31,860 nucleotides of DNA, from positions 1 to 31,860 of IMG/VR virus record IMGVR_UViG_3300046170_000547; one strand, 5' to 3'. The position numbers were made by a program, and so were the translations under genes. Position 1 is the stretch's first letter; the number at the start of each line of letters is the position of its first letter. Of this stretch, positions 731 through 22,648 are shown in pieces. The DNA is from a virus. Below the pieces are notes generated by a model, which made no database searches, was not told where the DNA came from, and saw nothing but the letters and a program-made list of their open reading frames with translations.

Positions 731-1311
731 TAAATAACTCCTTTGGTTTGCAGATTGGTTTTGTGTACTTGGAAATCTTCCATAAAGGTGGTGTAGGCAA
801 TCGGATTTTTAATCTTCAGATCTCCTAACATTGCTTTATTTTTAGACAACCATTCTTGATAAGATCCTTTGTGAGACACAGCTTCTAATTCTTTTAAAGC
901 TGTTTGGATCTTTTTGTCTTGCTGCACTATTGCAGCTGAAACTTCTTCAGCAGATGCAATTCCATCTGAAATAAAGCCTAGGAATGCAAGAGCTCTACCA
1001 GTAGCAGAGGTTTCGCAATTCTCTAAAGCGGAAGTTTGATTTATTTTTGATGCTGCTCTTTTCTCTTCAGCATGACCAGTAGATACATGAACACCATCAA
1101 TATAAATATCCGATGACATCACTACTGTATTTACATCGATACTTACTATTTTAGTTACAATATCTAATGCAGTTCCAAGAACTCTTCTTGCAACAGCTAC
1201 TCTTAATGCAACAGTAGCATAGCTTTTTCCATGTATTGGGATTGTTTGTCCATCTAATGATTTTTTAAATTCATTAACAGCCTGGACTAGCTTATCTTTT
1301 ATATCAGCCAT
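730..1311 (-). CDS. ERF/Rad52-like single-strand DNA annealing protein
   Basis: This 193-aa protein probably pairs complementary single strands during phage recombination, working with the exonuclease encoded just upstream. Residues 93-113 contain TSALENCETSATGRALAFLG, close to the 'ETSAxGRALA' signature of ERF-type and Rad52-superfamily phage annealases. The N-terminal half has the expected strand-rich pattern (YATVALRVAVARRVLG...IVTKIVSIDV) and the C-terminal third is charged and helical, as in annealases with a variable tail. The start is fixed by a strong ribosome binding site (AGGAGGAATAACTAT directly before ATG). It overlaps a 40-aa membrane-protein gene upstream and shares TAATG with the next gene downstream. 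The call is by motif and context. Confidence 0.8.
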   Translation of the reverse strand: MADIKDKLVQAVNEFKKSLDGQTIPIHGKSYATVALRVAVARRVLGTALDIVTKIVSIDVNTVVMSSDIYIDGVHVSTGHAEEKRAASKINQTSALENCETSATGRALAFLGFISDGIASAEEVSAAIVQQDKKIQTALKELEAVSHKGSYQEWLSKNKAMLGDLKIKNPIAYTTFMEDFQVHKTNLQTKGVI

Positions 1312-1421
1312 ATAGTTATTCCTCCTACGATTAAAATAAAGAGAGCCGATAAAATTCTTCTCTTTACTTGTTGCTTATGTTGGTCCAATTTTCTTTGGAT
1401 ATAAAATTCTTCTAACTTCAT
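1299..1421 (-). CDS. Small single-pass membrane protein (40 aa)
   Basis: The frame begins at 1421, where ATGA couples it to the stop of the exonuclease gene, and ends at 1299 inside the annealase start region. The sequence is MKLEEFYIQRKLDQHKQQVK followed by a basic pair and the hydrophobic segment LSALFILIVGGITIWLI, one predicted transmembrane helix at the extreme C-terminus. The amphipathic, charged N-terminus would lie in the cytoplasm. The tight start/stop coupling on both sides supports translation. Function is unknown; a membrane peptide inside a recombination operon could modify the host nuclease or membrane, but nothing here proves it. Confidence 0.6.
   Translation of the reverse strand: MKLEEFYIQRKLDQHKQQVKRRILSALFILIVGGITIWLI
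1312..1326 (-). promoter_or_regulatory. Strong ribosome binding site of the annealase gene
   Basis: AGGAGGAATAACTAT lies immediately upstream of the ATG at 1311. The same 15 bases occur before the gene at 4792 in the other early operon. Confidence 0.8.
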
Positions 1422-2497
1422 GATAGCTTCCATAACAGTTTAGCTTCTTTTAATAATTCTGGTGGCATTCCATTCCAAGCAAATGGATGGTCTAGGTTCA
1501 TATCCATCAAAGATGCTGCTCCTTCAATAATTTCTTCTCTAGTGTAATCTTGATATAAAGTTAGGATCTGTTCTCTTCTTCTAAAAGTATTAAACATTAT
1601 TTGTAAATTCTTTTTCATTCCATCAACTGTTAAATGATGACAGTTGGTACTATCAAAAATAGTGTAACCAGATTTTGTTGCATAAAGTAAATATGCTGGA
1701 ACTTTAAAATTAAAGTGAGCTGCGTATGTTGCCACCTGGCAAACATGATTAAAACTAGCGGTAGCTGGTACGGAGGAAACAAGAAAACTCCTAGATCCAT
1801 CCTTTTTAACTTTACCTAATCGGCTCCACTTGGTTTTTAGCTCAATAATCTTATGAGGAAAGGCATCCACTTGGGATGTCGGATTAGTCTCTGTGAGAGG
1901 TGTACCGAACTCATGACTATTGATACCAAAATCAAAATCAATTCTACCAACTGTTGGTAACAACGGAGAAGAAAAACCTTCCAGTTGATCGATTGATATT
2001 TGTCTTTCGCAAGTTACAGGACTTGCTACCGCTAGTTCTTTTAATCCAGATAAAGCATTATTAATTACTTCTGGAATTTCTTCTAAATATTTTTGCTTCT
2101 TGTCGCTATCCTTCTCATCATTAGGAACATACTCTTTTAATTTTTCTATCTCCTCCTGGAGAGCTGCATCTTTTGTAATTTTTTCATTTGTTGTTGGAGC
2201 AACTTTTTTCTTAACTGGATGTAATTTATAAATTGTATCTGCGTAAATTCTTTGAAGAACTTCTCCAACAATTTTTCCAGCTTCCATAGCTGCATTAGAT
2301 GGAAGTAATTCTCTTCTCATCTTCTGGTCCATAAATACATACTTGAATAACCAAGCTGCATCTGGAATAGCAAATTGTGTTGGGGAGTAATGATTGATTT
2401 TTAATTTTCTTGCAAAGGTTGGTAATGTTTTTTCTAAAGCTTCTGCTAAAGGATCTGAAACTGGTTGTGTGTTTTGTATGTTTGATTTTATTATCAT
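1418..2497 (-). CDS. PD-(D/E)XK (RecB/Cas4-like) exonuclease
   Basis: This 359-aa protein carries the PD-(D/E)XK nuclease signature: GRIDFDF with D187, IIELKTKW with E219 and K221, and a later QVATY with Q254 and Y258, the RecB/Cas4-type QxxxY helix. An N-terminal helical part with HYSPTQF (residues 36-42) resembles the 'S-x-S' start of RecB-family nucleases. No Cys cluster for a 4Fe-4S site is evident in the C-terminal part, which argues against a true Cas4. The natural role is 5'-3' resection feeding the neighbouring annealase. The gene is the first of the leftward recombination operon and lies downstream of the 21-bp element at 2538-2558. It ends in an ATGA overlap with the 40-aa membrane protein. 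Confidence 0.8.
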   Translation of the reverse strand: MIIKSNIQNTQPVSDPLAEALEKTLPTFARKLKINHYSPTQFAIPDAAWLFKYVFMDQKMRRELLPSNAAMEAGKIVGEVLQRIYADTIYKLHPVKKKVAPTTNEKITKDAALQEEIEKLKEYVPNDEKDSDKKQKYLEEIPEVINNALSGLKELAVASPVTCERQISIDQLEGFSSPLLPTVGRIDFDFGINSHEFGTPLTETNPTSQVDAFPHKIIELKTKWSRLGKVKKDGSRSFLVSSVPATASFNHVCQVATYAAHFNFKVPAYLLYATKSGYTIFDSTNCHHLTVDGMKKNLQIMFNTFRRREQILTLYQDYTREEIIEGAASLMDMNLDHPFAWNGMPPELLKEAKLLWKLS

Positions 2498-2537
2498 ATG
2501 AAAGCCTTTTAACTCTCATATTTATTATGTAAAACAG

Positions 2538-2558
2538 TTTATGCGTTTTGGATAAACT
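2538..2558 (-). promoter_or_regulatory. Operator/promoter element, left copy
   Basis: Read on the minus strand, these 21 bases are AG followed by TTTATCCAAAACGCATAAA. They are identical to 4257-4277 on the plus strand. The core is an imperfect dyad with half-sites TTTATNC. In both copies CAAAAC is followed by exactly 17 bases and then an AT-rich hexamer (here TAATAA), which could be a promoter's -10 box. The copy lies about 40 bp before the exonuclease start. It is best read as an operator overlapping a left early promoter, bound by the repressor encoded between the two copies. Confidence 0.7.
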
Positions 2559-2565
2559 TCGCTGT

Positions 2566-2856
2566 CTATTTAGACTGTTTAGTCTTTGTCGGAAAGTTCG
2601 ACACATTCGACAAATTAACACCAGTATTTACTGACTTCTTTTTATAACTGAATGGTATCCTACTTGTTTTGTTCTTCCACTCATCTAATTCTGATTTGTA
2701 AAAAACCTTTTTAAATAAAATTATTTTGTATGGAACTTTGTAAGGATGTTCATCTGCTGTGTAATAAATAAAAGTTGTTCTTGGTAATCCAATATATTTA
2801 GCTGCTCCAGCAGCTGTTGTATATTCGTTTTTGTTTTCGTCTAACTTCCAAATCAT
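2566..2856 (-). CDS. Small helix-turn-helix protein (Cro/excisionase/AlpA-like)
   Basis: This 96-aa protein starts in a TAATG overlap with the repressor stop. Residues 11-30 (EYTTAAGAAKYIGLPRTTFI) form a plausible helix-turn-helix of the MerR/excisionase type. They are followed by YYTADEHPYKVPYKIILFKKVFYKSELDEW, the short beta wing plus final helix typical of excisionase-like proteins, in which a residue pattern 'F-x-K-x-x-L-x-x-W' ends the domain. The C-terminal 35 residues are basic and Ser/Asn-rich. Co-transcription with the repressor suggests a second regulator, for example of Cro, Xis or AlpA type. No integrase is visible in the window to decide between these. Confidence 0.7.
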   Translation of the reverse strand: MIWKLDENKNEYTTAAGAAKYIGLPRTTFIYYTADEHPYKVPYKIILFKKVFYKSELDEWKNKTSRIPFSYKKKSVNTGVNLSNVSNFPTKTKQSK

Positions 2857-4224
2857 TATTTTTTACCACCAACAATTTTTAATTTTGCTCTACTATCTCT
2901 ATTAATTTTTTCTCCAATTTTTTGAAATAAATCAATTTTATGTTTTGCTTTTTCTTCATACATTTGTTGTTCAATACTTTTAGAAATTTTTTTTATATCT
3001 TCTCTTAATTTTTTTTCTTGCTCTAAAGCATATTCATAAGCTTTTTGTGCTGTCGCTTTTACTTGTGCAGCTTCTGCTTTTGTTGCTTTAATAACATCTC
3101 CAAGATCTTCTTCGTATTTATCTTTTGCATGTAATAATTTTTTTGTTTTTTCTAATTCAGCTGCAAGCATTTCTTCTCTTCTAAATAAAGCTGAATGTGG
3201 AATAGTTTTTTTCAAATCTGTTTGATCTCTTACAGCATCTGGATTTACAAGAGCTGCAACTGGTGTGATAAATTGTGGTTCAAAATTTTTTAAAATAAAT
3301 TTATTTTCTAAATCTCCAGAATATGGATCTGGGTTTATTAAATTACATTGACCTCTAACCTCTTCATATAAACCAAAATAATATCTTGTCTCTGTATCAT
3401 TTGTAAATTCAACTGGACCAACTGGAACTTCAACACCAACTACACATAATTGATTTAAAATATTATTTTCTTTATTTTCTGCTCTGTAATAAAAAGCAAT
3501 TTTATTATCGTACATTGATCCTCTTGCAGTAATTTTAATTGCTTTAATATCTTCTCTGTAAAGATCTCTTGGTACAACAACATTTTCAAAATCTTTATCT
3601 TCGATTGCATAACTAAATAATCTTCCAGGATTATAAGTATCTTCTAATTCAGTTGGTTTTAGCAAATCAACTTTTGCCCAGACTGGACACATCTTTTTAT
3701 CAAACATTAAATCAACTGGATCGCAATTAAGTTTGTCTGCATACTCTATAGCAATTTCTCTTGAGATCTCTCTACCACCGCTTACATGATGGTATAATGA
3801 AGGTGCTTTAATTCCAGTTTTTTCTGCGAATTGTCTTGCTGTATAACCAGTATTTTCGATAGCTCTACCAAGTAAAGTTCCTGGAGATGTTGTTTGGTTT
3901 GTAGTAAATTTTGTTAAATTAAATTCGTCTGTAAATTTATCCATCATCTCATGTCTTTGTCTGTCATTCTTTTTTCTCATTATGACATCTAAAGATCTTT
4001 TAAAAACAACTCCTTCTTCTCCATAAAGATGAAGTCTTTTTTGTTGTACATCTGATTGATTGAAATTTTTTTTTATAAATAAATAAGACATCTGCCATTT
4101 GTGTTCCAAGCAATCCGCCTTTAATTGTTCTTACAATTTTGTAATCGATAAGTTCAGCAACATTAGACCAATCGCCTATTTGCCTTTCTTTAATTGGATA
4201 TTTTTGAATATCAGACATTATCAT
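2856..4224 (-). CDS. XRE/S24-like phage repressor, interrupted by a +1 at an A9 run
   Basis: From about 3895 down to 3710 the translation is a clear XRE helix-turn-helix (GTLLGRAIENTGYTARQFAEKTG, IKAPSLYHHVSGGREIS, LNCDPVDLMF). Around 3520-3550 comes IKITARGSMYDNKIAFYY, which resembles the 'GxSM' start of the LexA/CI S24 domain. The tail (about 3190-2860) is a long Lys/Glu/Ala-rich coiled coil. Two overlapping frames cover the 5' end. The upstream one (from 4224, with MSDIQKYPIKERQIGDWSN) runs into A9 (T9 at 4066-4074). Removing one A joins it as FIYKKNFNQSDVQQKR to the long frame. If unshifted, translation could start at 4109 or later. The catalytic Lys of S24 is not obvious, so RecA-triggered self-cleavage is uncertain. 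The gene lies between the two operator copies. Confidence 0.7.
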
Positions 4225-4256
4225 TTATATAGTTATTCAACCTGGAAAAGTAAAGG

Positions 4257-4277
4257 AGTTTATCCAAAACGCATAAA
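4257..4277 (+). promoter_or_regulatory. Operator/promoter element, right copy
   Basis: This is the plus-strand copy of the 21-bp element at 2538-2558, located 40 bp before the first gene of the rightward operon. CAAAAC is followed by 17 bases and TATCTA. The surrounding gap 4225-4316 contains no gene of its own. It also contains GGAG just before the element and TTGACT after it. Confidence 0.7.
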
Positions 4278-4316
4278 TTTAGTTGACTATCTATTTCAAC
4301 AGATTATTGAGGTTAA

Positions 4317-4820
4317 ATGGCTAGAAAAGAGCAATATCCAGGTGTTTTAAAGACACCATACTCAATATGGCATAGAAACCAACATAATGGCATAGCTTAT
4401 TCGGATATTGATAAAATTTCTCAATGTCCAGCATGTGGAAAAGCCTTATTTTTAGCCGATTTAATCTTCAATGCTAATAATCAGTTTAAAACAAAGCCTT
4501 TTTATACAAAGCGGATCTATTTAGAAATTGCAACAGCTCTACAAATACCTTTTTTTGAGCTCTATTATACAACTGTCGGTAAAGCAGATAATGGTCCATT
4601 AGAGAGCCTCTCTGTTCGAAGAATAGCTCCATCTAAAGGAGATCTACAACACATCGATTTAGATAAGTGGTTACAATATTTAGAATTTAAGGTCCAGGAA
4701 CACATCAAGGTTTGCCAATCAAAAGATTACTTACTCAAAAGAATTACTGAAGATAACGAACATAATAAAAATTTTGTAAGGAGGAATAACTATGTCAAAG
4801 TTTTATCTAACAGATCCTAA
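4317..4820 (+). CDS. Conserved phage protein with CPxCG motif
   Basis: The 167-aa protein begins MARKEQYPGVLKTPYSIWHR and continues with HNGIAYSDIDKISQCPACGKALFLADLIF. I recognise this arrangement (PGV..TPYS.WHR..H.GIAY.DID....CP.C...LF.AD) from conserved hypothetical proteins of several phages. The two Cys of CPACG could be half of a zinc site, although no second pair is obvious. The C-terminal segment HIDLDKWLQYLEFKVQEH is helical. Function is unknown. It is the first gene of the rightward early operon, directly under the operator-like element, and its end overlaps the next gene by 29 bp. TTGAGGTTA before the start is only a weak ribosome binding site. Confidence 0.75.
   Translation: MARKEQYPGVLKTPYSIWHRNQHNGIAYSDIDKISQCPACGKALFLADLIFNANNQFKTKPFYTKRIYLEIATALQIPFFELYYTTVGKADNGPLESLSVRRIAPSKGDLQHIDLDKWLQYLEFKVQEHIKVCQSKDYLLKRITEDNEHNKNFVRRNNYVKVLSNRS
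4779..4793 (+). promoter_or_regulatory. Strong ribosome binding site
   Basis: AGGAGGAATAACTAT precedes and runs into the ATG at 4792, which decides that start although it lies inside the end of the preceding gene. It matches the annealase leader on the other strand. Confidence 0.75.
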
Positions 4821-5298
4821 TATTATTAATGCAGCATTGACTGATAAAGAATTTAGAATTTATCACTATTGCTGTTCAAACTATAATGTTCAAAAAAGAT
4901 CTGCCTATATTAGAATTGTAGATATAGCTGGTCTATTCCAATTATCTAAAAAAGAAGTTGAAGAGCTGCTAATTAAATTAAGTCAAATTAAAGTCAACGA
5001 TTTGCCATTAATAAGTATGAAGCAAGAGAAGTATATTTCTTTTGACATGCCAAGCCATAAAAAATTTATAGAAAGTCTAGGATTTAAAAAATATTCCAAT
5101 CAAGGTTTTAGAACTTTAAATGGTCATTTCAAACAGATCAAAGATGCTGAACAAATTAAAATCAGAAGTTATCTATATCCAAACTTGGACCAATGGGAAC
5201 TCCTGGAGAAGTTAGAAGGTTTGCCAACAGAAGAATTTAATAAAGTTAAACCAGAGCAATTACAATATCCTTGGATCTTAAAAAAATGTCAAAGATAG
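4792..5298 (+). CDS. Hypothetical early protein, possible winged-helix
   Basis: This is a 168-aa soluble protein with no family I can name. The N-terminal half (LTDKEFRIYHYCCSNYNVQKRSAYIRIVDIAGLFQLSKKEVEELLIKL) has the helix-helix-recognition-helix order seen in winged-helix domains of phage replication or regulatory proteins. It begins with the 'LT-x-x-E-x-R-x-Y' pattern typical of such domains. The rest (SFDMPSHKKFIESLGFKKYS...) is mixed and charged. Translation is probably high because of the strong ribosome binding site. The stop overlaps the start of the following gene. A DNA-binding role in early regulation or replication is an inference. Confidence 0.6.
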   Translation: MSKFYLTDPNIINAALTDKEFRIYHYCCSNYNVQKRSAYIRIVDIAGLFQLSKKEVEELLIKLSQIKVNDLPLISMKQEKYISFDMPSHKKFIESLGFKKYSNQGFRTLNGHFKQIKDAEQIKIRSYLYPNLDQWELLEKLEGLPTEEFNKVKPEQLQYPWILKKCQR

Positions 5299-5745
5299 AG
5301 CATGAGATAAACCAATACTTATATGTAAGAAGTAATATTATTAATATTCTTGCAGATGCTGCTATTGCAGAAAGATTTATAAGAGCTCCAAATAATAGAA
5401 GATGTCCTAGTATGTATCAAATGCTTAGAAACTTATTATGATAAAAAAGACTGGGGTTATCATGCAGAGCCTAAATTAAAATTAAGAGGTACTCCAAAGC
5501 AAATGCAAAATTATGATACAGCAATAGATCTATTGTTGATGATTGAAACAGATATATCAGATGATCCAGTATTGATGCGTAAGATCTCCTGGATGAGAGC
5601 TAACAGAAATAAATGGACAGTCATTGGAAAGTATTTTGGTATTCATAGAACAAGTGTAAAGAGAATGTATGACAAAGTATTAGATAAGCTATCAAATAAA
5701 GTTATTACTCAAAGTGTTGACATACTAATCAAAAAGTTTAGTTAA
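5286..5745 (+). CDS. DUF6362-like HTH protein, single frameshift near 5427
   Basis: Frame one (MSKIEHEINQYLYVRSN...RCPSMYQML) continues in the next frame as ETYYDKKDWGYHAEPKLKLRGTP...DPVLMRKISWMRANRNKWTVIGKYFGIHRTSVKRMYDKVLDKL if one base (the A at about 5427) is removed. The joined 152-aa protein has the layout of the phage DUF6362 group: an N-terminal helix, a middle 'P-T-x-x-Q' linker, then W-x-R-A-x-x-x-x-W-x-x-I-G-x-x-x-G-x-x-R-x-x-V, a helix-turn-helix. These are thought to be DNA-binding; the function is unproven. It overlaps the upstream gene and is the last gene before the terminator at 5839. Confidence 0.65.
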
Positions 5746-5838
5746 TTAACTTATCCTCAAATATTTTTATAAAATAAATCACATAAGACAAAATATTAAA
5801 ACATCATAGTTGCAAAGTTATCTTGGAGCTGTAAAATA

Positions 5839-5904
5839 ATAGTAACTGCTTTCAAACAGAATAATAGAAGCTGTTGGAACTATTTTTTTTTCTCTTTTTT
5901 TTTT
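5839..5904 (+). terminator. Rho-independent terminator of the rightward early operon
   Basis: ATAGT at 5839-5843 pairs with ACTAT at 5879-5883. Inside, AACTGC (5844-5849) pairs with GCTGTT (5870-5875) with one mismatch, and a 3-base bulge lies between the two stems. Nine T follow (5883-5891) and then a second T run to 5904. The stem is imperfect but the position between two operons fits. Confidence 0.6.
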
Positions 5905-5923
5905 CAATCAATAATTAGCAACA

Positions 5924-6139
5924 ATGAAATTCAAACTGCCTTGCGAAACATTAACGAAACAAGGTAAGAGACCTTGTAGAGCTCCTGGAATAGTAATGAA
6001 GAATGGTAGAATACGATGCAAAGTGCATGGTGGTTATTCTACTGGACCAAAGACTAAAGAAGGTAAGGCAAGATCTGCCAATAATATTATTAAATATAAT
6101 GACCAAAGAGCTAGTAATAAACGACAAATTAACGAATAA
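5924..6139 (+). CDS. Small HGGxSTGPKT-motif phage protein
   Basis: The 71-aa protein reads KLPCETLTKQGKRPCRAPG...GRIRCKVHGGYSTGPKTKEGKAR. The 'CKVHGG-x-STGPKT-x-EG' core is a well-known feature of short phage proteins encoded beside terminase genes. The Cys and His residues (C6, C18, C32, H35) could bind one metal ion. Its function is not established. It lies at the start of the packaging module after the terminator and overlaps the small terminase gene by 41 bp. Confidence 0.75.
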   Translation: MKFKLPCETLTKQGKRPCRAPGIVMKNGRIRCKVHGGYSTGPKTKEGKARSANNIIKYNDQRASNKRQINE

Positions 6140-6524
6140 GATTTGTACAGAATTAATGAATGGCATTCCTCTTGCTAGACTTGCAAGACAAAAGGATATG
6201 CCAAGCTTAACCAGAATTTATAAAGAGATTACAAACAACAAATCCTTTCTTGAAAGAATAAACGAAGCAAGAAGAATTGGTGCTCAAACTTATATTGAGA
6301 ATGCAATGGATGAGTTGGAACATGCAGACAATCGAAACATTATGATTGTTAGAGAGAAGGTAGGATTAGCCAAGTGGTTAGCTTCTAAACTAATTCCAGT
6401 TTATGGAGACAGACAAGAAGTTAAGACTGATACAACGATTGAGATCAAGTGGTCAACAGATAATAAAGAAGTAGTTGATGTAACTCCAGATGATGTAGAG
6501 GTCGGTATTATAAAGGACAAGTAA
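6099..6524 (+). CDS. Terminase small subunit-like protein
   Basis: I place the start at 6099 (MTKELVINDKLTNKICTEL) because the upstream part of the open frame is a shadow of the HGG gene. This gives 141 aa. The N-terminus has an HTH pattern (KICTELMNGIPLARLARQKDMPSLTRIYKEI) as in Sf6 gp1-like small terminases. Then come a central helix (FLERINEARRIGAQTYIENAMDELEHAD) and the family-like AKWLASKLIPVYGDRQEV. The small subunit recognises the packaging site and hands DNA to the large subunit. Position just before the large terminase agrees. The C-terminal tail is acidic. The exact start remains open because the ribosome binding site is weak. Confidence 0.8.
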   Translation: MTKELVINDKLTNKICTELMNGIPLARLARQKDMPSLTRIYKEITNNKSFLERINEARRIGAQTYIENAMDELEHADNRNIMIVREKVGLAKWLASKLIPVYGDRQEVKTDTTIEIKWSTDNKEVVDVTPDDVEVGIIKDK

Positions 6525-6944: not shown

Positions 6945-8215
6945 TGCAAGTTACAATACCTTATACTCCAAGGAAGGCTCAAGCTTATATCCATGAGCAA
7001 CTAGATAAGTTTAGATATAGCCTACTCTGTTGTCATAGGAGGTTTGGCAAAACTGTTTTGTGTATTAATCATTTAATCAAAGCAGCGATGACAAGTAAAA
7101 ATCATCAACCAAGGTATGCCTATATAGCTCCGACTTATAGCCAGGCAAAGAAGATAGCTTTTGATTATTTAAAACATTTTACAAAAGGTATTCCAGGAAC
7201 AAAGTATAACGAAACAGAATTAAGATGTGATTTTGTTAATGGTGCTAGAATTACTTTACTGTCATCTGAAAATCCAGATAGCATAAGAGGAATTTATTTA
7301 GATGGATGTATTATAGATGAGACTGCTCAAGTTAATACAGAGCTGCTTTCAGAAGTAATTACTCCAGCTTTATCTGATAGGAAAGGTTTTATGATTTTGG
7401 TTGGAACACCAAAAGGAATGGCAAATCTTTTTTATGACTATTACCAAAAAGCTCAAGGAGATCCTAAATGGTTTCTTCATGTAGCAAAAGCAAGTGAAAC
7501 AAAGATAGTTGATGATGATGAGTTAGCAGCAGCTTTGACTGTGATGGGCTCTCAAAAATACGAACAAGAATTTGAATGTTCTTTTATCGGCAATATTCAA
7601 GGCTCTATATATGGAGATGTTATTGCCTCTTTGGAGGACAAAAAGCAGATAACAAGAGTTCCAGTAGATCCTAGTTATCCAGTAAATGTAGCCTGGGATC
7701 TAGGTTTTAATGATGCAACAAGTTTAATATTTTTCCAACAGATTGGACACATGATCCACATCGTTGATTTCTATGAAAACAACAATGAGCCTCTGCCTCA
7801 CTATGCAGAAGTTATAAAAGAAAAAGATTATATAATCGGTCAAAATTATGGACCGCATGATTTAGAACAGACTGAATTTGGATCTGGTAAAACCAGAAGA
7901 GAAGTTGCTTATCAAATGGGATTGCGTTTTAAAGTTGCTCCCAGGATGGCAATCGAAGATGGCATACATGCTGTAAAAATGCTTTTGCCAAGATGTCTAA
8001 TAGATGTCGATAACTGCACAAAATTAATAAATGCTTTAAGGCATTACCATCGTAAGTTTTCTGACAAAGAAAGAACTTACAAAATTAAACCAGTCCATGA
8101 TTGGAGTTCACATGCGTGTGATGCGTTAAGAACTTTAGCAACTGGAATAACAGAAAATAAATATAACCAAAACAAAAGACAGCAAGTCGCTGACACTAAC
8201 TACAAGGTACTATAA
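6944..8215 (+). CDS. Terminase large subunit
   Basis: This 423-aa ATPase and nuclease drives DNA into the prohead and cuts the concatemer. All motifs are visible. The Walker A-type RRFGKT is at residues 32-37, the Walker B GCIIDE ends at D125-E126, and the coupling motif VGTPKG is at about 153-158. The RNase H-like nuclease acidic residues are D252 (WDLGFNDATS), D306 (GPHDLEQTEF) and D393 (HACDALRTL). I chose the start at 6944 (MQVTIPYTPRKAQ) because it sits in a TAATG overlap; a start at 6911 would add 11 unlikely residues. The protein is rather short for the family but lacks nothing essential. It is followed directly by a tiny membrane-peptide gene. Confidence 0.95.
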   Translation: MQVTIPYTPRKAQAYIHEQLDKFRYSLLCCHRRFGKTVLCINHLIKAAMTSKNHQPRYAYIAPTYSQAKKIAFDYLKHFTKGIPGTKYNETELRCDFVNGARITLLSSENPDSIRGIYLDGCIIDETAQVNTELLSEVITPALSDRKGFMILVGTPKGMANLFYDYYQKAQGDPKWFLHVAKASETKIVDDDELAAALTVMGSQKYEQEFECSFIGNIQGSIYGDVIASLEDKKQITRVPVDPSYPVNVAWDLGFNDATSLIFFQQIGHMIHIVDFYENNNEPLPHYAEVIKEKDYIIGQNYGPHDLEQTEFGSGKTRREVAYQMGLRFKVAPRMAIEDGIHAVKMLLPRCLIDVDNCTKLINALRHYHRKFSDKERTYKIKPVHDWSSHACDALRTLATGITENKYNQNKRQQVADTNYKVL

Positions 8216-8310
8216 TGAAAATAAAAGAACATATTCCACATATTATTCAAGAACATAAAACAACATGTGCAGTAGTGGCTGTAATCATAATTGTTTTAGC
8301 AATACTTTAA
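8215..8310 (+). CDS. Tiny membrane peptide (31 aa)
   Basis: The ATG overlaps the terminase stop (TAATG). MKIKEHIPHIIQEHKTTC is followed by AVVAVIIIVLAIL, a single transmembrane helix ending at the C-terminus. Tiny C-tail-anchored peptides are common between phage structural genes. The role is unknown, and translation is supported only by the start/stop coupling. Confidence 0.5.
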   Translation: MKIKEHIPHIIQEHKTTCAVVAVIIIVLAIL

Positions 8311-8316
8311 AAAATT

Positions 8317-8541
8317 ATGGGATCAATATTTAAACCAAAAATTCCAGCTCCTCCTCCAATCGTTATGCCAGAGCCAGTTGATGTTCCTAATTACGAAGAT
8401 GAGGAAAGAGATGCTGCTGCTAAAGCAGAAATGTTAGAAGCTGAAAGAAAAAGAAAAGGCAGAAGATCTACTATCTTAACTGGTAGTGGTCTAAACGAAA
8501 TCGAAGATGCAAATGTCGATAAGAAAACTTTACTAGGCTAA
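8317..8541 (+). CDS. Hypothetical head-region protein with C-terminal KKTLLG motif
   Basis: The 74-aa protein begins MGSIFKPKIPAPPPIVMPEP, a proline-rich, otherwise hydrophobic start. It has a charged helix (DEERDAAAKAEMLEAERKRKG) and ends in RRSTILTGSGLNEIEDANVDKKTLLG. I know this layout, with 'ILTG...KTLLG' at the end, from short proteins encoded between terminase and portal in many podo- and siphophages. Function is not established. The same ending recurs in the gene at 8717-9385. Confidence 0.7.
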   Translation: MGSIFKPKIPAPPPIVMPEPVDVPNYEDEERDAAAKAEMLEAERKRKGRRSTILTGSGLNEIEDANVDKKTLLG

Positions 8542-8543
8542 TT

Positions 8544-8714
8544 ATGTTTTCAACAATAACTAAATTTTTTCAAAAGAAAAAGAAAAAAGTAGAAGAAGCT
8601 TTAGACATTCCAAAGATTTTAATTTTAGAAGATATAACTTATGAGAACGAAGTTGAGAAATCTAAAACAAAAGACACTAAAGAAACTAAATCAACTTTAA
8701 CATTCGGTAAATAA
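8544..8714 (+). CDS. Small charged protein (56 aa)
   Basis: The frame starts 2 bp after the previous stop (MFSTITKFFQKKKKKVEEAL) and ends at 8714, 2 bp before the next ATG. The first ten residues are amphipathic and the rest is Lys/Glu/Thr-rich. Tight packing between two genes with the same spacing supports it as real. No family is recognised. Confidence 0.55.
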   Translation: MFSTITKFFQKKKKKVEEALDIPKILILEDITYENEVEKSKTKDTKETKSTLTFGK

Positions 8715-8716
8715 TT

Positions 8717-9385
8717 ATGGGTGGACCTTCTGGTGGACAAGGTGGCGGCAGAACAGATGCTGGACCAAATAGAACTACTGCAACTAAAATTGGTGTAGGT
8801 AACATAAATGAAAAAGGTAAAAAGACTAGATCTTATAAATCTGATAATCCAGATGCTTTTAGAAATCGTGGTGCAGAAAAAATAAAGAAAGGAGTTAAAA
8901 CTCCATCATTAATGTATAATGCTGGCTGCAGCAATTTTATCTAAACCTTTACAAGCTGGATCAAAAGTTACTAGAGATTTTTATACTGACTAAAGTTTTA
9001 GGATCAAAAAATTTTAAAGGTCAAACTAAAACAGAATTTTTAAGCATGAGTGCTACTGACCAGGAGAAACAATATAAGAAGTTATATTGATAATAGAACT
9101 TCTGGAAGAACAGATGCTTATGGAAATGACATCTCAAGAGATGGTCGAACTGGAGAAAATAAAAAATCTATTGAACAACCAAAAGTAGCTTCACAAATGG
9201 ATAATACTGAAGTGAAGTCCGATCTAATTACAGCTGATAAGACAGCTCCCACAGAAGTGGAGATGACGCAAGACGAAATCAATGTTGCTAACAAAAGAGG
9301 TAAGAAAACTAAAACAATCTTAACTTCAGTTAGTGGAGATAACTCAAGAACAACCTTAAGCAAAAAAGTATTACTAGGAGTATAA
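8717..9385 (+). CDS. Gly-rich head-region protein with KKVLLG ending, three frameshifts
   Basis: One protein of about 221 aa is spread over three frames. It starts MGGPSGGQGGGRTDAGPNRT. Single-base insertions near 8915, 8991 and 9082, if removed, give one continuous frame through AAAILSKPLQAGSKVTRDFY, GSKNFKGQTKTEFLSMSATD and DNRTSGRTDAYGNDISRDGR to KTILTSVSGDNSRTTLSKKVLLGV. The total shift of three restores the starting frame, which supports one gene. A hydrophobic stretch (LMLAAAILS) sits near residue 67. Function is unknown. The last 25 residues echo the end of the gene at 8317-8541. Confidence 0.55.
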
Positions 9386-9549: not shown

Positions 9550-11165
9550 TGCAATCACAAGAATTTAGAACTTTGGCTAAACAGCTAAAAGACAACCTAT
9601 CTAGGTTAATGGAAAAGAGATCCAACTTTGAAAGCCATTGGCAAGAAGTAGCAGATCTTATGTTACCTAGAAAAGCAGAGATCACAAAAGAACGAGCAAG
9701 AGGCGATAAACGACATACACAAATATTTGATGCAACGGCTATACATGCTCTGGAACTTTTGGCTGCATCTCTGCATGGTATGTTGACTTCATCTGCGAAT
9801 AGATGGTTTTCATTAAGATTTAAGGAAACACAATTAAATGAAAGCGATGAAGCGAAAGAATGGTTAGAGGACAGTACACAAAGAATGTACGATGTAATTT
9901 CTAAATCAAACTTTCAACAAGAAATATTTGAATGTTATCATGATCTGATTGCCTTTGGCACATCATGTTTAATGATTGAAGAAGATCAAGAAGATGTATT
10001 AAATTTTTCTGCAAGACACATTAAAGAAGTTTATATCCAGGAAAACAAAAAAGGTTTTGTCGATACTTTATACAGAAGATTTAAGATGCCAGCTCAAGCT
10101 GTTATATCTAAATTTGGATTTGAAAATGTATCAAGAGAAGTTCAAAACACAGCAAACAAAAATCCATTTGATGATATAGATTTAGTTCATGTTGTTAGAC
10201 CAAGAATAGATTTTGATCCTAATAAAAAAGATAAAAAGAATATGCCATTTCAAAGTATTTATTTTGAATATGGTAGTGGTCATATAATTTCATTAGGTGG
10301 TTTTTTAGAAAATCCTTATGTCATTCCAAGATACTTAAAAGCTTCTACTGAACAGTATGGAAGATCTCCAGGAATGAATGCTTTAGCAGATGTAAAAGTT
10401 TTAAATAAGATGGTAGAGAATAGTTTAAAAGCTGCTGCAAAGCAGATTGATCCTCCTCTACTCATTCCAGATGATGGAATGTTAGCTCCTATTAGAATGT
10501 CTCCAGGCAGTATTAATTATTATAGATCTGGATCAAGAGATCGAATTGAGCCATTAAATATTAATGCTAACAATTCAATTACTATTAATAACGAAAATCA
10601 AAGAAGAGATGCTATTAATAAGATGTTTCATATCGATCAGTTAGTTGTAACTGAAAATAGAAACATGACAGCGACTGAAGTAATTCAAAGACAAGAAGAG
10701 AAGATGAGAATACTTGGTCCAGTATTAGGTAGATTACAATCTGAATTATTATCTCCATTAATAACTAGAGTATTTAATATTCTTTTAAGAAATGGATTGT
10801 TTATGCAATCTCCAGATATTCTTCAACAACAAGAATTAAAAATAGAATTTGTATCTCCAATGGCATTAGCACAAAGAGGACAAGAGCTTCAGTCATTAAT
10901 GAGAGGATTAGAAATCTTTGGATCACTTGCTCAAACAATGCCAGTTATGGATTACATAGATGAGAATGGATTAGTTAAAAACATTATTGATATTTTAGGA
11001 TTACCAGCAAAAGTTATTAAATCAGATGCTGAAGTAGAACAAATTAGAACTGAAAGAGCTGAACAAGAAGCACAACAAATGGAAATGCAGCAACAAATGG
11101 CTGAAACACAAATGGCGAAGAATGCAGCTCCAATGGCAAAAGTAGTTCAAGATGGATCACAATAA
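9549..11165 (+). CDS. Portal protein (T7 gp8-type head-tail connector)
   Basis: This 538-aa protein forms the dodecameric ring at the head vertex through which DNA enters and leaves. The N-terminus (LMEKRSNFESHWQEVADLMLPRK) and the segment LLAASLHGMLTSSANRWFSLRF around residues 70-95 are hallmarks of podovirus connector proteins. The middle contains the stem/clip region (ARHIKEVYIQENKKGFVDTLYRRFKMP). The C-terminal half has the conserved pattern ATEVIQRQEEKMRILGPVLGRLQSELLSPLITRVFNIL. It ends in a Gln/Met-rich helix (QAEQ..QQMEMQQQMAET) like other members. Length matches T7 gp8 (about 536 aa). The gene is intact. Confidence 0.93.
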   Translation: MQSQEFRTLAKQLKDNLSRLMEKRSNFESHWQEVADLMLPRKAEITKERARGDKRHTQIFDATAIHALELLAASLHGMLTSSANRWFSLRFKETQLNESDEAKEWLEDSTQRMYDVISKSNFQQEIFECYHDLIAFGTSCLMIEEDQEDVLNFSARHIKEVYIQENKKGFVDTLYRRFKMPAQAVISKFGFENVSREVQNTANKNPFDDIDLVHVVRPRIDFDPNKKDKKNMPFQSIYFEYGSGHIISLGGFLENPYVIPRYLKASTEQYGRSPGMNALADVKVLNKMVENSLKAAAKQIDPPLLIPDDGMLAPIRMSPGSINYYRSGSRDRIEPLNINANNSITINNENQRRDAINKMFHIDQLVVTENRNMTATEVIQRQEEKMRILGPVLGRLQSELLSPLITRVFNILLRNGLFMQSPDILQQQELKIEFVSPMALAQRGQELQSLMRGLEIFGSLAQTMPVMDYIDENGLVKNIIDILGLPAKVIKSDAEVEQIRTERAEQEAQQMEMQQQMAETQMAKNAAPMAKVVQDGSQ

Positions 11166-11388: not shown

Positions 11389-12231
11389 ATGGAAAATCAG
11401 ACAACTGCTCCAGCGGAGCAATCTGAACAGCCAACAGAAGTTGTTCAGAATAATACTGTAATAACTGAAGTTGCAGAAAACCAGGAAACAAATTTTAAAG
11501 ATTTAATTCCTGAAGGTTTCAAAGAAGAAAAAGCTTTGGACAATTTTAACAATATGGAAGATTTCGTAAAAAGTTATCTCCATGCACAAAAGTTAGTTGG
11601 AGCTGATAAAATTCCAGTTCCTAACAAGCATGCAACAGACGAGGATTGGAATGAAGTATTTAAAAAATTGGGTGCTCCAGAAAGTCCAGATGATTATCAA
11701 TATAACATCAAAGATCAAGAACTGGATCAAACGCAAGTTAAAGAATTTAATAAAGCTGCACATCAATTAGGATTACTTCCTAAACAAGCTGAAGGCTTAA
11801 TTAAGTTTTATAATGAGATGAATGGTAACAATGCTGCATCTCAAGAAGAAGCTGCTGCTGAAGCACAGTTACAAACTGAAACTGAACTTAAAGCAGAGTT
11901 TGGACCACAGTTTAATAAGAGACTTGACCAGGCTAAAAAGCTTGCAGTTAATTCTTTAGGATCAGAGTTTTTAGAAAATACTTATCTTAAAGATGGATCA
12001 AGACTTGGAGACAACATCAAAGTTATAAAAGCTTTTTCTGAACTAGCTGACAAATTATCTGAAGATGAAATCATCAAAGGCGATGGATCTGAATATATGA
12101 CAGCTAAAGACATCGAAAAAGAAATTAACGAACTAACTCAAGAAGGATCTGCATATTGGAGCAAAACACATCCAAATCATAACAAAGCAGTTCAAGAAGT
12201 CTTGAAGTTAAGAGAGATGTTAAATGGCTAA
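11389..12231 (+). CDS. Scaffolding protein
   Basis: The 280-aa, acidic, mostly helical protein lies directly before the capsid gene. It starts with a disordered Gln/Glu/Thr-rich region (about residues 1-35). Then comes the family-like motif FKDLIPEGFKEEKALDNFNNMEDFVKSYLHAQKLVGADKIPVP, widespread in phage scaffolds, followed by DEDWNEVFKKLGAPESPDDYQY and a coiled-coil rich rest. It would nucleate prohead assembly and leave before packaging. A small gene separates it from the capsid gene. No protease is visible nearby, so the scaffold is probably released whole. Confidence 0.85.
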   Translation: MENQTTAPAEQSEQPTEVVQNNTVITEVAENQETNFKDLIPEGFKEEKALDNFNNMEDFVKSYLHAQKLVGADKIPVPNKHATDEDWNEVFKKLGAPESPDDYQYNIKDQELDQTQVKEFNKAAHQLGLLPKQAEGLIKFYNEMNGNNAASQEEAAAEAQLQTETELKAEFGPQFNKRLDQAKKLAVNSLGSEFLENTYLKDGSRLGDNIKVIKAFSELADKLSEDEIIKGDGSEYMTAKDIEKEINELTQEGSAYWSKTHPNHNKAVQEVLKLREMLNG

Positions 12232-12430
12232 TGAAAAATTTGAGCCAGGCGAAATAATAACAGAAACAGAAGTTAGACTTGAATGTTTAAGACTAGCAAC
12301 TGAATTTGGTCCAGAGAATGATCGTAGAGATCCTCTGCCAATAGCTGAAAATTATTTTGACTGGGTTATGCAAACTTCAAAGCGACAATCTGAAAAGACC
12401 GCCAAGAAAAAAGACAAAGTGAAGTCTTAA
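12224..12430 (+). CDS. Small hypothetical protein between scaffold and capsid
   Basis: The 68-aa protein overlaps the scaffold end by 8 bp. It reads EIITETEVRLECLRLATEFGPENDRRDPLPIAENYFDWVMQ and ends in a Lys-rich tail. The segment ECLRLATEF...ILxxAxxYxxWV is shared with small phage proteins of the same position, but I cannot name the family. It is helical and soluble. Confidence 0.6.
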   Translation: MANEKFEPGEIITETEVRLECLRLATEFGPENDRRDPLPIAENYFDWVMQTSKRQSEKTAKKKDKVKS

Positions 12431-12442
12431 AATTCACAGATG

Positions 12443-12471
12443 CGACCTCCTCTTGGAGACAATCCAAGTCG
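12443..12471 (+). other. Hairpin upstream of the capsid gene
   Basis: CTTGGA (12452-12457) pairs with TCCAAG (12463-12468) around a 5-base loop. Outer CGA (12443-12445) can pair with TCG (12469-12471) over a bulge. It lies in the 78-bp gap before the major capsid gene with no T run, so an mRNA-processing or stability element is more likely than a terminator. Confidence 0.4.
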
Positions 12472-12508
12472 ATTAAATCAACCATAACAACATAAGGAGA
12501 TTAGAAAT

Positions 12509-13375
12509 ATGTCTAATCAAATTACTACAGCTTTTGTACAGCAGTATTCAAACAATGTACAAATGCTATCACAACAAAAAGGCTCACTTTCTGAGATCTG
12601 CTGTTGATGTAGAAACTGTTGTCGGCAAAAACGCATTTTTCGATCAAGTCGGAAGTGCTCTTGCAGTTAAAAGAACTACAAGACATGCTGATACTCCACA
12701 GATGGATACACCACATGCAAGAAGAAGAGTAAGTCTTGTTGATTATGAGTACGCAGATCTTATCGATAACCAAGATAAAATTCGTACTTTAATCGATCCA
12801 ACATCATCTTATGCCTCTGCTGCTGCTTTCGCATTAGGAAGAGCTCAAGATGATGAAATTATCGCTGCTTTATCTGGAACAGCATTTACTGGAGAGACTG
12901 GATCTACATCTACTGCTCTTCCGTCAAGCCAAAAGATAACTGAAAGTGGTACTGCTGGTTTAACTATTGCTAAATTAAGATCTGCAAAAGAGATCTTGGA
13001 TGCAGCTTCAGTTGATCCATCAATCGCTAGATACATTGCAGTTTCGTCCAAAACAAATTACTGATTTGTTAGGAACTACTGAAGTTACATCTAGTGATTT
13101 TAACTAGTGTTAAAGCTTTAGCGAATGGAGAAGTTAATTCATTCCTTGGCTTCAACTTTATAGTGTCTAACAGACTTACATCTGCATCATCTAAAAGACT
13201 TTGCCTAGTTTGGGCAATGGATGGTTGTAAGATGGCTATCGGTCAAGACTTAATGACTAGAATTGATGAGAGATCTGACAAAGGTTATGCTCATCAAGTT
13301 TATGTTTGCCAGTCAATCGGTGCAACAAGAATGGAAGAAGATAAAGTTGTAACAATCCAAGCTCATGAAGCTTAA
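12509..13375 (+). CDS. Major capsid protein, broken by three single-base insertions
   Basis: A single protein of about 287 aa is rebuilt by removing one base near 12589 (CTTTCTG), 13043 (GTTTCG) and 13105 (AACTAGTG). It begins MSNQITTAFVQQYSNNVQML with AAGGAG upstream. It has the capsid-family features QQKGSLLRSAVDVETVVGKNAFFDQVGSA, RRVSLVDYEYADLIDNQDKIRTLIDPTSSYA, an Ala-rich helix ending GRAQDDEIIAALSG, and the late segment SFLGFNFIVSNRL. This is the HK97-fold coat type common in podophages with a BPP-1-like head; it differs from T7 gp10. Losing it would be lethal, so the indels are unlikely to be true mutations in a live phage. Confidence 0.88.
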
Positions 13376-19765: not shown

Positions 19766-22648
19766 ATGAATGATTTAATTGATAATGTTTATTTGCCAGA
19801 CTTTGATAAAAGAAAAATCAGAGATAGTGATGCTTACAAATTATTAAAAGATAATAATAAAGATACTTCTGTTCTTGAAGGATATGAGAATACAGAAAAA
19901 ATTGAGCCAATAGATTTTCCAGTTTTTAATACTGAAAGTGATAAGACAAAATTTATAGAAGAGAATGCTACATCTGTTGCATCTACTGCTAAAGATTATC
20001 TTGAGACTTTTGGAAATATCTTAACAAATGAAACTGAAGATTTTTTAACTAGCATGCAGCTTGCAGCTGTTAATGGTGCAGATGTTGCAGTTAATCTTAT
20101 GCCTCTTGCTTATAAGATGTTTGAGAGTGCTCCTATTGCAATGGCATTACCTAAAGAATTTTTCAATCAAGAAACTGAAGGAGATGTTATGCGAGTTGCA
20201 CAACATTATTCAGATAATCTTGGAGAATACAGAGAACACTTATTTGAAAAACAAAAAGATAATGGATGGGTAAAAGATATATTAAGTCTTGTTGTTCAAG
20301 ATAGTGCCTACTCTATTCCAGCATATAATATGATGAGAAAAGCTGGTGTTCCTAAATATCCAGCATTCTTTCTTTCAGCTGCCTTTGGTGCTGTTGGTGT
20401 AGAGAATGTAGATAGAGATGGAGATAAAACTTACTTTGCTCCTTTTCAAAAAGATGTTCAAGAACTTAAAAGATTAATTGGAATACTACCAGATACTCCA
20501 GCAGATAAGATAGCAGATGAAGTACACCAGGCATTAGAATATGGAACTTTTGGAGCTGCTATTCCTGGTATCATAGATGCGTTTAAATTTATGAAGCAAT
20601 ATCTTCCTAAATTCTCGAACAGTAGCTGGATCAACTGCTGCTGTTGTTGGATTGACTGCTGACAATGAAGCTGAAGGATCTCTATTAAAAGTATTTTAAA
20701 AGCTGTTGACTAGTGCTCCAATGTTTAAATCAGCTGTTGTAGATGCAGCAGATAAAATTCCAACAGTTGCTAGTGGAGAACAAATATTTAAAACAATTAA
20801 AATACATCTGGTGTTAAAGCTTCTGAACTTAAATGGATGGACCTGGAAGGATTTTTAAAAGGTAAAACTAAAGTAAGTAAAGATGAAGTTTTAGAATACA
20901 TCAATACAAATAAAATAGATGTTACTGAAGTTACAATGTCATCTAGTTCAAAAAAAGGTTTGCCAGATGATTTAAGACAAAATGTTGATGATTACGAAAC
21001 TAGATGGAGAGATAGTGATCTTGCAGATGGTGTAACTCCTAACTATGACAGATATAAAGTAAGACATATTAATTATGAAGTTCCAGGCATAGATGGAAAT
21101 AAACCAATCGACAGAGTAATACCTCAAGATTGGCAATCAATTAATAGAAATCCATTAATAGAAGCTATGGATCAAGATGCAGAAATGGTTGGTACTGGAA
21201 CTAAATGGAAAACTATTAATGCCTTGTTAGAACCATGGAAAGATATGGAGACTGGTAAATTTACTGGTCATGTAATTGAGTTTGATCAAACAGCTTTAAG
21301 AAAATTTCCAGAAGATGATTACAATTTTGTATCTCAAAATGGTACACCTGGTGCTGATGATTATACACAAAGATATATTGTTTCCTCTAATAGTTTAGAA
21401 GAAATTGATTTAAAACATAAATATAAAAAAATTGCTACATACGAAATGGATAATCTTGAACTTGAAAGATTTCATTTAGAAGATGAAATAAGAAATTATA
21501 AATTAAGTGGCGAAGGTCAATCTAATCTACCAGTTTATGAAAGATATACTTCTCCTGGTGGATCTAATTATACTGAACTTGTTTTTAAAACTAAAACTAA
21601 AGATCTAACAACTCCAGCAATACTTGAAGGAGAGTTTGGAACTTTAGCAAATAATAAAGTTAAATCAGAAGTTAAAACATCTATTGATTTTATGTCTCCT
21701 CATTTTAACAGACCAAATGAGTTTGCTCATGTAAGATTTAAGACAAGAGAATTACCTAATGGTAAGAAAGCATTGGTTGTAGAAGAAATGCAATCAGATT
21801 TATTACAAGCCTCTAAAACAGATATGTTTGCTAGTGCTAACTCAACATCAAGAGCTGCCGATGAAATGAGATATGCAAATAGAGATAAAGTATTAAAAGA
21901 CTTTCCATTTAAAAACAGTTGGTATGAGTTCACAATTAAGAGATTAACTAGATATGCTGCTGATAATGGCTTTGATGCTGTTGCAATTCCTAAAGGAGAA
22001 TTAGCTGCTAATAGATATGGTCAAAAGATTAATAAGATAACTTCAGTTGAAGCTGTTCCATCTGTTGGAAAAACAGTAGATGAGGATGCTTATATAATTA
22101 GAATAATGGATGAAAATAATGAAGCTTTTAAAGAAATAAAAGTAAGTGCTGGAGGACCAGGAGAACTATCATTAGATCAAGTGTTTGAACAAATGTCTAG
22201 TTTAAGAAAAGATATTGGAGATAAAAATTATTCAATTCTTCAACAAACATATTTAGAAGCAGTTGATGCAAAACAATTAGTTAATAATAAAATCGAAACT
22301 TCAGTAACTGGAACTGGAAAAGGTAAGTTTGAATTATACGACAAAACTATTCCAAGCTACATGAAAAAGTATGCGAAGAAATGGAATGCTAAAGTTTATG
22401 ATGACAATATTCCATATTTTACAGATCAAGTTAATGAAGGTGTTTTTTCAACTGAAGTTGTTACAAATGCAAAAAGGAATGACATACCAGTTACAATTTT
22501 AGAATTATCAGATGAGATGAAAACTGGAGTACAAAGTTCAAGTCAACCTCTATTTGAATTACTTGGTGGAGTGAGCTTGTCATACTGGGGAGCTCAAGCA
22601 GTATCGGATAGTATGGAAAACAATAGTATTTCACAAACGACAAATTAA
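19766..22648 (+). CDS. Giant internal virion protein with polyvalent-protein-type C-terminal domain
   Basis: About 959 aa when rejoined (insertion near 20612, in-frame TAA at 20697-20699, one A missing near 20800). The N-terminal third is helical (QLAAVNGADVAVNLMPLAYKMFE...) with Gly/Ala-rich membrane-like stretches. From about 20820, ASELKWMDLEGFLKGKTKV then VSKDEVLEYINTNKIDVTEV begins a domain I associate with large phage polyvalent and virion proteins. It contains SPHFNRPNEFAHVRF, ALVVEEMQSDLLQ, WYEFTIKRLTRYAADNGFDAVAIPKGELAANRYGQ and ends PVTILELSDEMKTGVQSSSQPLFELL. This may be an enzyme delivered into the host. Activity is unknown. Confidence 0.65.

Follow-up and report, generated by a model that had tools for sequence, protein, structure and literature searches.

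The two 21-base elements of the stretch analysed here (the window, 31,860 bases of the IMG/VR virus record IMGVR_UViG_3300046170_000547) are very probably operators, one left and one right, of the CI-like repressor whose gene lies between them, a reading drawn from the comparison of related phage sequences; the right copy probably serves to control the promoter of the repressor gene as well. Across relatives, the repressor gene and both operators appear to behave as one immunity cassette that is exchanged between similar genomes. It is this clean joint travel of the repressor and both sites in wild SAR11 phages, and not the operators themselves, that represents the main surprise; the observation is real and explained in outline. 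From left to right, the features of the region are the following, with relatives assigned to the A family (the window's type of repressor) or to the B type (that of the isolate HTVC028P).

1418 to 2497, minus strand: first gene of the leftward operon, 359 amino acids; the HTVC028P counterpart is annotated as a putative nuclease, and no Pfam match exceeded the cut-off.
2506 to 2533, minus strand: predicted leftward early promoter, with TTTACA (2533-2528), a 16-base spacer and a weak -10 box, TAAAAG (2511-2506).
2538 to 2558, minus strand: predicted left operator, with the dyad TTATSC-N5-GSATAA, directed towards the leftward operon and kept in 24 of 25 typed A-family relatives.
2566 to 2856, minus strand: small second cassette gene, 96 amino acids, with an excisionase-like HTH recognised by eye only; it differs between relatives, one of whose versions has a weak HTH_17 match, below the cut-off.
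2856 to 4224, minus strand: predicted CI-like repressor gene, with HTH_3 above the cut-off; it is split over two frames here.
4226 to 4254, minus strand: predicted repressor promoter, with TTTACT (4254-4249), a 17-base spacer and TATATA (4231-4226).
4257 to 4277, plus strand: predicted right operator, the second 21-mer copy, with the dyad kept in 28 of 28 typed A-family relatives.
4283 to 4310, plus strand: predicted rightward early promoter, with TTGACT (4283-4288), a 16-base spacer and a weak -10 box, TATTGA (4305-4310).
4317 to 4820, plus strand: first gene of the rightward operon, 167 amino acids, with no Pfam or PHROGs match.

The preliminary description of the window had reported a 21-base element occurring once per strand, each copy pointing into the operon that it precedes, with two regulator genes in between, and all of this was borne out. 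The 19-base core lies at 2538-2556 on the minus strand and at 4259-4277 on the plus strand and has no third place in the whole window at up to three mismatches, the chance expectation being a mean of 0.02 in 100 dinucleotide shuffles, none of which reached two. Together with the adjoining AG it forms a perfect 21-base inverted pair with arms at 2538-2558 and 4257-4277. Start codons follow about 40 bases past each copy (ATG at 2497 leftward and ATG at 4317 rightward), and the two regulator genes occupy 2566-2856 and 2856 to about 4224. The same 19-mer was found in 15 stretches of other IMG/VR contigs.

The characterisation of each copy as an imperfect dyad with TTTATNC half-sites was correct and is the key point, the half-sites being conserved in relatives. 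Close repressor relatives carry TTTATCC-N5-GCATAAA at both equivalent places, with AAAAC, AAATC, ATATC, ATAAC, AATTC, AAATT or ATATT as the N5 spacer (loci were merged in the dyad listing when the last 90 bases of both regions agreed), and in 12 contigs with repressors 45-53% identical to that of the window the places seen hold the fully symmetric TTATCC-N5-GGATAA; L028 combines a symmetric left site with an asymmetric right one. The orientation of A sites with unequal halves is constant except in L024, where the right site is turned round in place, the sole inverted case among those seen, and this constancy counts against the operator reading. Emphasis had also been placed on CAAAAC followed by 17 bases and an AT-rich hexamer, an arrangement that is literally present in the window but not conserved among relatives, where CATATC, CAAATC, CAATTC, CAAATT, CATAAC or CATATT stands in the position of CAAAAC; as a -35 box CAAAAC was rejected, as it consists of the variable spacer plus one base. 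On this comparison the element reads as a dyad, with half-sites of six bases around five spacer bases that vary, and it has no directional box; the exact identity of the two copies appears to be a special case of the window, the half-sites alone being conserved.

The dyad TTATSC-N5-GSATAA was sought at up to one mismatch in eight records, comprising the window and seven relatives of 12.8-36.1 kb. Fifteen perfect dyads were found, all flanking the repressor and two per record, save for record G001 with the right one alone; the only others within one mismatch lie at 20187-20203 in the window and 8482-8498 in G001, each with a single mismatch. At two mismatches the window held 7 dyads against 6.6 expected, which is chance level. 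Tandem operators on either side were not found at up to one mismatch, seven of the eight records having one dyad per side and the eighth the right one only. L014, L018 and G001 denote the same contig, IMGVR_UViG_3300047157_000047, which lacks the left operator (L018, 7230-7500), an absence that counts against the operator reading; the frames of the repressor N-terminus, the left gene and the one after it are broken in this contig, pointing to either decay or an assembly prone to errors. In the search of the genome and its relatives for the 21-mer, as initially proposed, the copies in the window occur only at the repressor's edges, and the 99% identical relative L018 is without the left one. 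A second inverted repeat was observed between the left operator and the start codon in L030-L041, L053, L054 and L101 (e.g. TAGACTGATAATGTATCAGTCTA in L101); this repeat may represent an additional operator or else a hairpin in the RNA.

The window repressor matches HTH_3 in Pfam at 25.1 bits (cut-off 23) and gives weak PHROGs matches to phage transcriptional regulators and repressors, and the best PDB sequence match is the HTH of an antitoxin-like protein (E 5e-5). Its frame is divided between ORFs 4000-4224 and 2856-4109, as a result of either assembly error or recent damage, and is read through in relatives such as L017 and L008. An AlphaFold2 model of the intact L017 relative, based on a 28-row alignment (mean pLDDT 73, with a low pTM of 0.48), comprises an N-terminal domain (approximately residues 1-107), an HTH (114-173), a beta domain (178-326) and long helices (342-443). 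The modelled HTH matched P22 c2, 434 Cro and 434 repressor (Z 9-10.4), among others, with Z scores of 9-10.7 overall. The structure matches listed for the whole model were taken up by the HTH, and the C-terminal domain was therefore folded and searched by itself. The beta domain alone (pLDDT 85) matched lambda CI with Z 9.2 over 122 residues (rmsd 3.4), LexA with Z 8.1 and the 186 repressor with Z 8.0; the best 28 matches listed all have a CI/LexA-like fold, and the first unrelated one has Z 5.2. Foldseek matches of the same domain were weak, the best being lambda repressor at E 7e-3 and none falling below 0.001. The fold lists also hold the iron enzymes MPnS, HEPD and HppE with a similar HTH, which was taken as a shared fold only. 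The modelling points to a CI-like repressor that combines a Cro/CI HTH with a lambda-CI/LexA-like C-terminal domain. In the repressors of L045 and L046 the recognition helix is altered (KKSASLYHHTKGI). A Ser/Lys pair is the motif of RecA-stimulated self-cleavage; Ser236 is invariant in the 28 rows of the alignment, in which no conserved Lys was seen by eye on the expected partner strand, and RecA-driven self-cleavage thus looks unlikely.

The nearest isolate found, Pelagibacter phage HTVC028P, is 77% identical to the window over positions 4317-6510 and is placed in the proposed Ubiqueviridae, Vigintioctopevirus, in a table of HTVC010P-type viruses (PMC10504331). It has an integrase and the same gene order as the window around the repressor, and its DNA-binding protein gp05 is likewise encoded between two matching dyads of its own. 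Unlike in the window, gp05 is of the B type (32% identical over 220 residues) and the dyad is TAGACY-N3-RGTCTA, which was recognised as shared between the intergenic regions of HTVC028P, one copy being perfect and one having 1 mismatch, and the predicted sites occupy 2262-2276 and 4119-4133 of its record; the A-type 19-mer is absent at up to five mismatches. Phages with B-type repressors were brought in through searches with the left and right genes, and they showed that a repressor of the HTVC028P type, only about 30% identical to that of the window, can accompany early-gene proteins that are 81-96% identical. This range applies to the flanking proteins seen in L048-L052 and L057, with values of 78-80% for L055, 65% (left) and 84% (right) for HTVC028P itself, and 39-79% for L053, L054 and L101.

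Repressor type and site type change together. Regions next to an A-type repressor contain the A dyad (at up to two mismatches) in 24/25 cases on the left and 28/28 on the right and never the B dyad, whereas B-type repressors are accompanied by the B dyad in 10/10 left and 10/10 right regions and never by the A dyad. The types agree at 72 of the 73 sites and are never crossed, the single miss being the left region of L014, and chance dyads at up to two mismatches would amount to about 0.03 (A) and 0.02 (B) per 150-base region. The Fisher values of 8e-9 and 2e-9 are too optimistic since the contigs are related, and the counts are not independent, near-duplicate contigs (e.g. L007 and L012) having been kept; the window's own loci, L001 and L002, were left out. 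L045 (42%) and L046 (47%), A-like by sequence, were filed as 'other' with L058, L059 and L069, and counting these two as A would give 24/26 left and 28/29 right. The relatives on which motif B was counted are also those from which, together with HTVC028P, it had been derived, and a motif-free search served as a check. That search returned the dyad as the best left/right match in 29 of the 31 contigs of A or B type, with a score above six shuffles in 27. The site was missed in L014 and HTVC028P, and in L049 and L050 it was recovered at a score no higher than the shuffle maximum. In L069 and the other-regulator contigs L099, L102, L104, L105, L107, L108 and L110, the motif-free search gave no pair, with 13-15 of 19 positions matched against shuffle maxima of 13-15; scores one above the maximum of six shuffles (L102, L104, L105 and L069) were not counted. 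L045, L046, L058, L059 and L069 have related repressors without either dyad, which counts against the operator reading. L045 and L046 seem, on inspection by eye, to have a third site in common, around ACATACAG. In L104 (3221-4082) and L110 (5183-5936) the place of the repressor is taken by a small, unrelated protein that resembles a regulator (winged-helix by eye), and this replaced-regulator group has an integrase, the same flanking genes and no convincing site pair.

The gene trees, which were quick and made without bootstrap, require at least nine switches between A and B for the left gene (37 rows, 33 typed A/B) and at least eight for the right gene (35 rows, 32 typed); well-supported branches alone force eight and three changes of the B label, respectively. 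Ten hand-picked A/B pairs show 81-97% identity over the gene's first 300 bases, but 49-70% over the 40 bases that precede the gene and 33-44% farther upstream, where six of seven same-type controls, also hand-picked, retain 80-96%. The seventh control (L022/L027, left side) reaches 35% and has a different small gene there.

Predicted promoters occupy constant positions beside the sites. Among A-type regions, TTTACA begins exactly 4 bases past the left operator in 24 of 26 (L005 and L095, both among these 26, are from contigs with no repressor gene), TTGACA or TTGACT stands 4-8 bases past the right operator in 28 of 28, and on the repressor side the distance from the operator to a -35-like hexamer is 4 bases in 26 of 28, as against 3 in L029 and -1 in L032. 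The -35 hexamer of B-type right regions overlaps the dyad by 2 bases in 10/10, and in B-type left regions no convincing -35 was found beside the dyad, which counts against the operator reading. On the non-operon side of the left site, the promoter score is at shuffle level. The predicted -10 box is 7-9 bases from the gene start in 24/26 A-type left regions and 3-8 bases in 28/28 right regions, and on the repressor side it ends 1-11 bases before the first ATG, which would place the transcript starts on the start codon or immediately beside it; the lambda cI mRNA from PRM likewise starts at or next to its start codon. Shuffle tests of single promoters were mostly not significant (A-type median 0.12-0.35), and a generic promoter/terminator scan of 1300-6000 returned 25 promoter-like sites against 23.3 expected and missed the three proposed promoters; the prediction therefore rests on constant position. 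A stretch like TATCTGAGGAAATTA follows the rightward -35 (window 4289-4310) and recurs across all cassette types, including those with other regulators.

In the proposed mechanism, one repressor dimer would bind each site and block a host sigma-70-type promoter whose -35 hexamer begins 4-5 bases beyond it, such that the leftward and rightward early operons would both be silenced; the right site, lying between divergent -35 hexamers, would allow the repressor to control its own gene as well. Repressor binding, repression and lysogeny are what we infer. The suggestion that one repressor governs both divergent early operons through matching sites is well supported, as the dyads occur only at the repressor's edges and change together with it, but the exact identity of the copies does not hold generally.

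The main rival is activation from an upstream position, whereby the repressor-like protein would occupy the sites chiefly in order to assist host RNA polymerase at any one or several of the three promoters. The A-type dyad indeed ends 4-8 bases before the -35 hexamer rather than over it, and weak -10 boxes are as expected of activated promoters. However, the overlap of dyad and -35 in all ten B-type right regions suits repression, and the dyad centre lies about 50 bases before the predicted start, which is not a usual activating position; activation is on balance unlikely. It is more improbable still that the small second protein (2566-2856), and not the repressor, is what binds the sites. The gene for this protein belongs to the same cassette and adjoins the left site, but two unlike versions (the window type of L015/L022 and that of L020/L113) occur with the same A dyad, and the dyad follows the repressor type.

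The alternative offered in the preliminary description, a promoter for a phage-encoded single-subunit RNA polymerase read towards each operon, would account for two matching copies that each point into an operon, and is now scarcely credible. Just two copies per genome were found in the records searched, in opposite orientation and with none before the late genes, and the symmetry of the element, its inversion in place in L024 and the presence of another dyad when the repressor changes all argue against a polymerase promoter. No RNA polymerase match was obtained in Pfam for nine further large ORFs of the window; a PF00940 search of five records was also empty, with the control genomes silent as well. 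Operators of the CI-like repressor thus remain the preferred reading. A more elaborate version of it, which is doubtful, is a minimal lambda-like switch in which two single sites 1.7 kb apart would be bridged through the long C-terminal helix of the repressor, replacing three tandem sites per side, with three outward mRNAs starting at or next to start codons and the whole cassette exchanged in nature among SAR11 phages, so as to yield at least three types of immunity.

The phage of the window is probably temperate and infects SAR11 bacteria. No integrase is present in the 31,860 bases of the window, itself a genome fragment, and one was found in 9 of 12 related records as well as in HTVC028P. 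In L018, whose repressor is 99% identical to that of the window, the integrase is at 12126-13133, about 2.2 kb past the point matching the window's left end (a rough estimate from shared ORFs). A search for attachment-site tRNAs in the window and six loci gave none. Also beyond the point corresponding to the window's left end, the leftward operon of L018 encodes a second small HTH protein (10570-10968, XRE-like by eye), possibly a lytic-side regulator. L113 is a contig of a SAR11 single-cell genome, uncultured Pelagibacteraceae AG-439-N16, with an A-family repressor, exactly two predicted sites, both symmetric (1537-1553 and 3372-3388), and an integrase-like ORF recognised by eye (7706-8956); the contig is either a prophage or a co-sorted phage.

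SAR11 phages rank with the most abundant marine viruses, and a literature search limited to open-licence papers found no published repressor-operator pair for them. From the sites it can be predicted which phages would keep one another out of a lysogen, and the natural swaps provide a ready test, as near-identical early genes carry different repressor-operator types; if the reading is true, immunity type would help structure competition among SAR11 phages. In the passages considered from a transcriptome study of two other pelagiphages, one of which has its own RNA polymerase gene, no operator is named (PMC12753301).

The region resembles the immunity regions of lambda, 434 and P22 in the location of the repressor gene between left and right operators with the early operons directed outward, in the divergence of the repressor promoter from the rightward promoter, and in the pairing of a Cro/CI-type HTH with a CI/LexA-like C-terminal fold, known here from the model of the L017 relative. 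A near-leaderless repressor mRNA, predicted in the window, is a further likeness to lambda. The window type differs from lambda in having one dyad per side instead of three, a larger repressor (about 455 amino acids in the intact relative) to which an N-terminal domain and a long C-terminal helix are added, no recognised cro (in Pfam and PHROGs searches with the first rightward gene, which gave no match), a cleavage Lys that is absent by prediction, and an A-type site upstream of the -35. Although it would work like the lambda immunity region, it is not classed as such, since neither tandem operators nor the cleavage pair, both looked for, were found. Lambda itself is described as having six 17-base operators, three per side (PMC10742460). 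For 434, repression of PR and PL and a second gene on the PRM transcript have been described (PMC3564112), the latter in a place like that of the small gene of the window. In cluster A mycobacteriophages, repressor and sites are reported to diverge together and to define immunity types (PMC6550527); their stoperators are many, asymmetric, in one orientation and distributed genome-wide, whereas the window has two dyads at the edges of the repressor.
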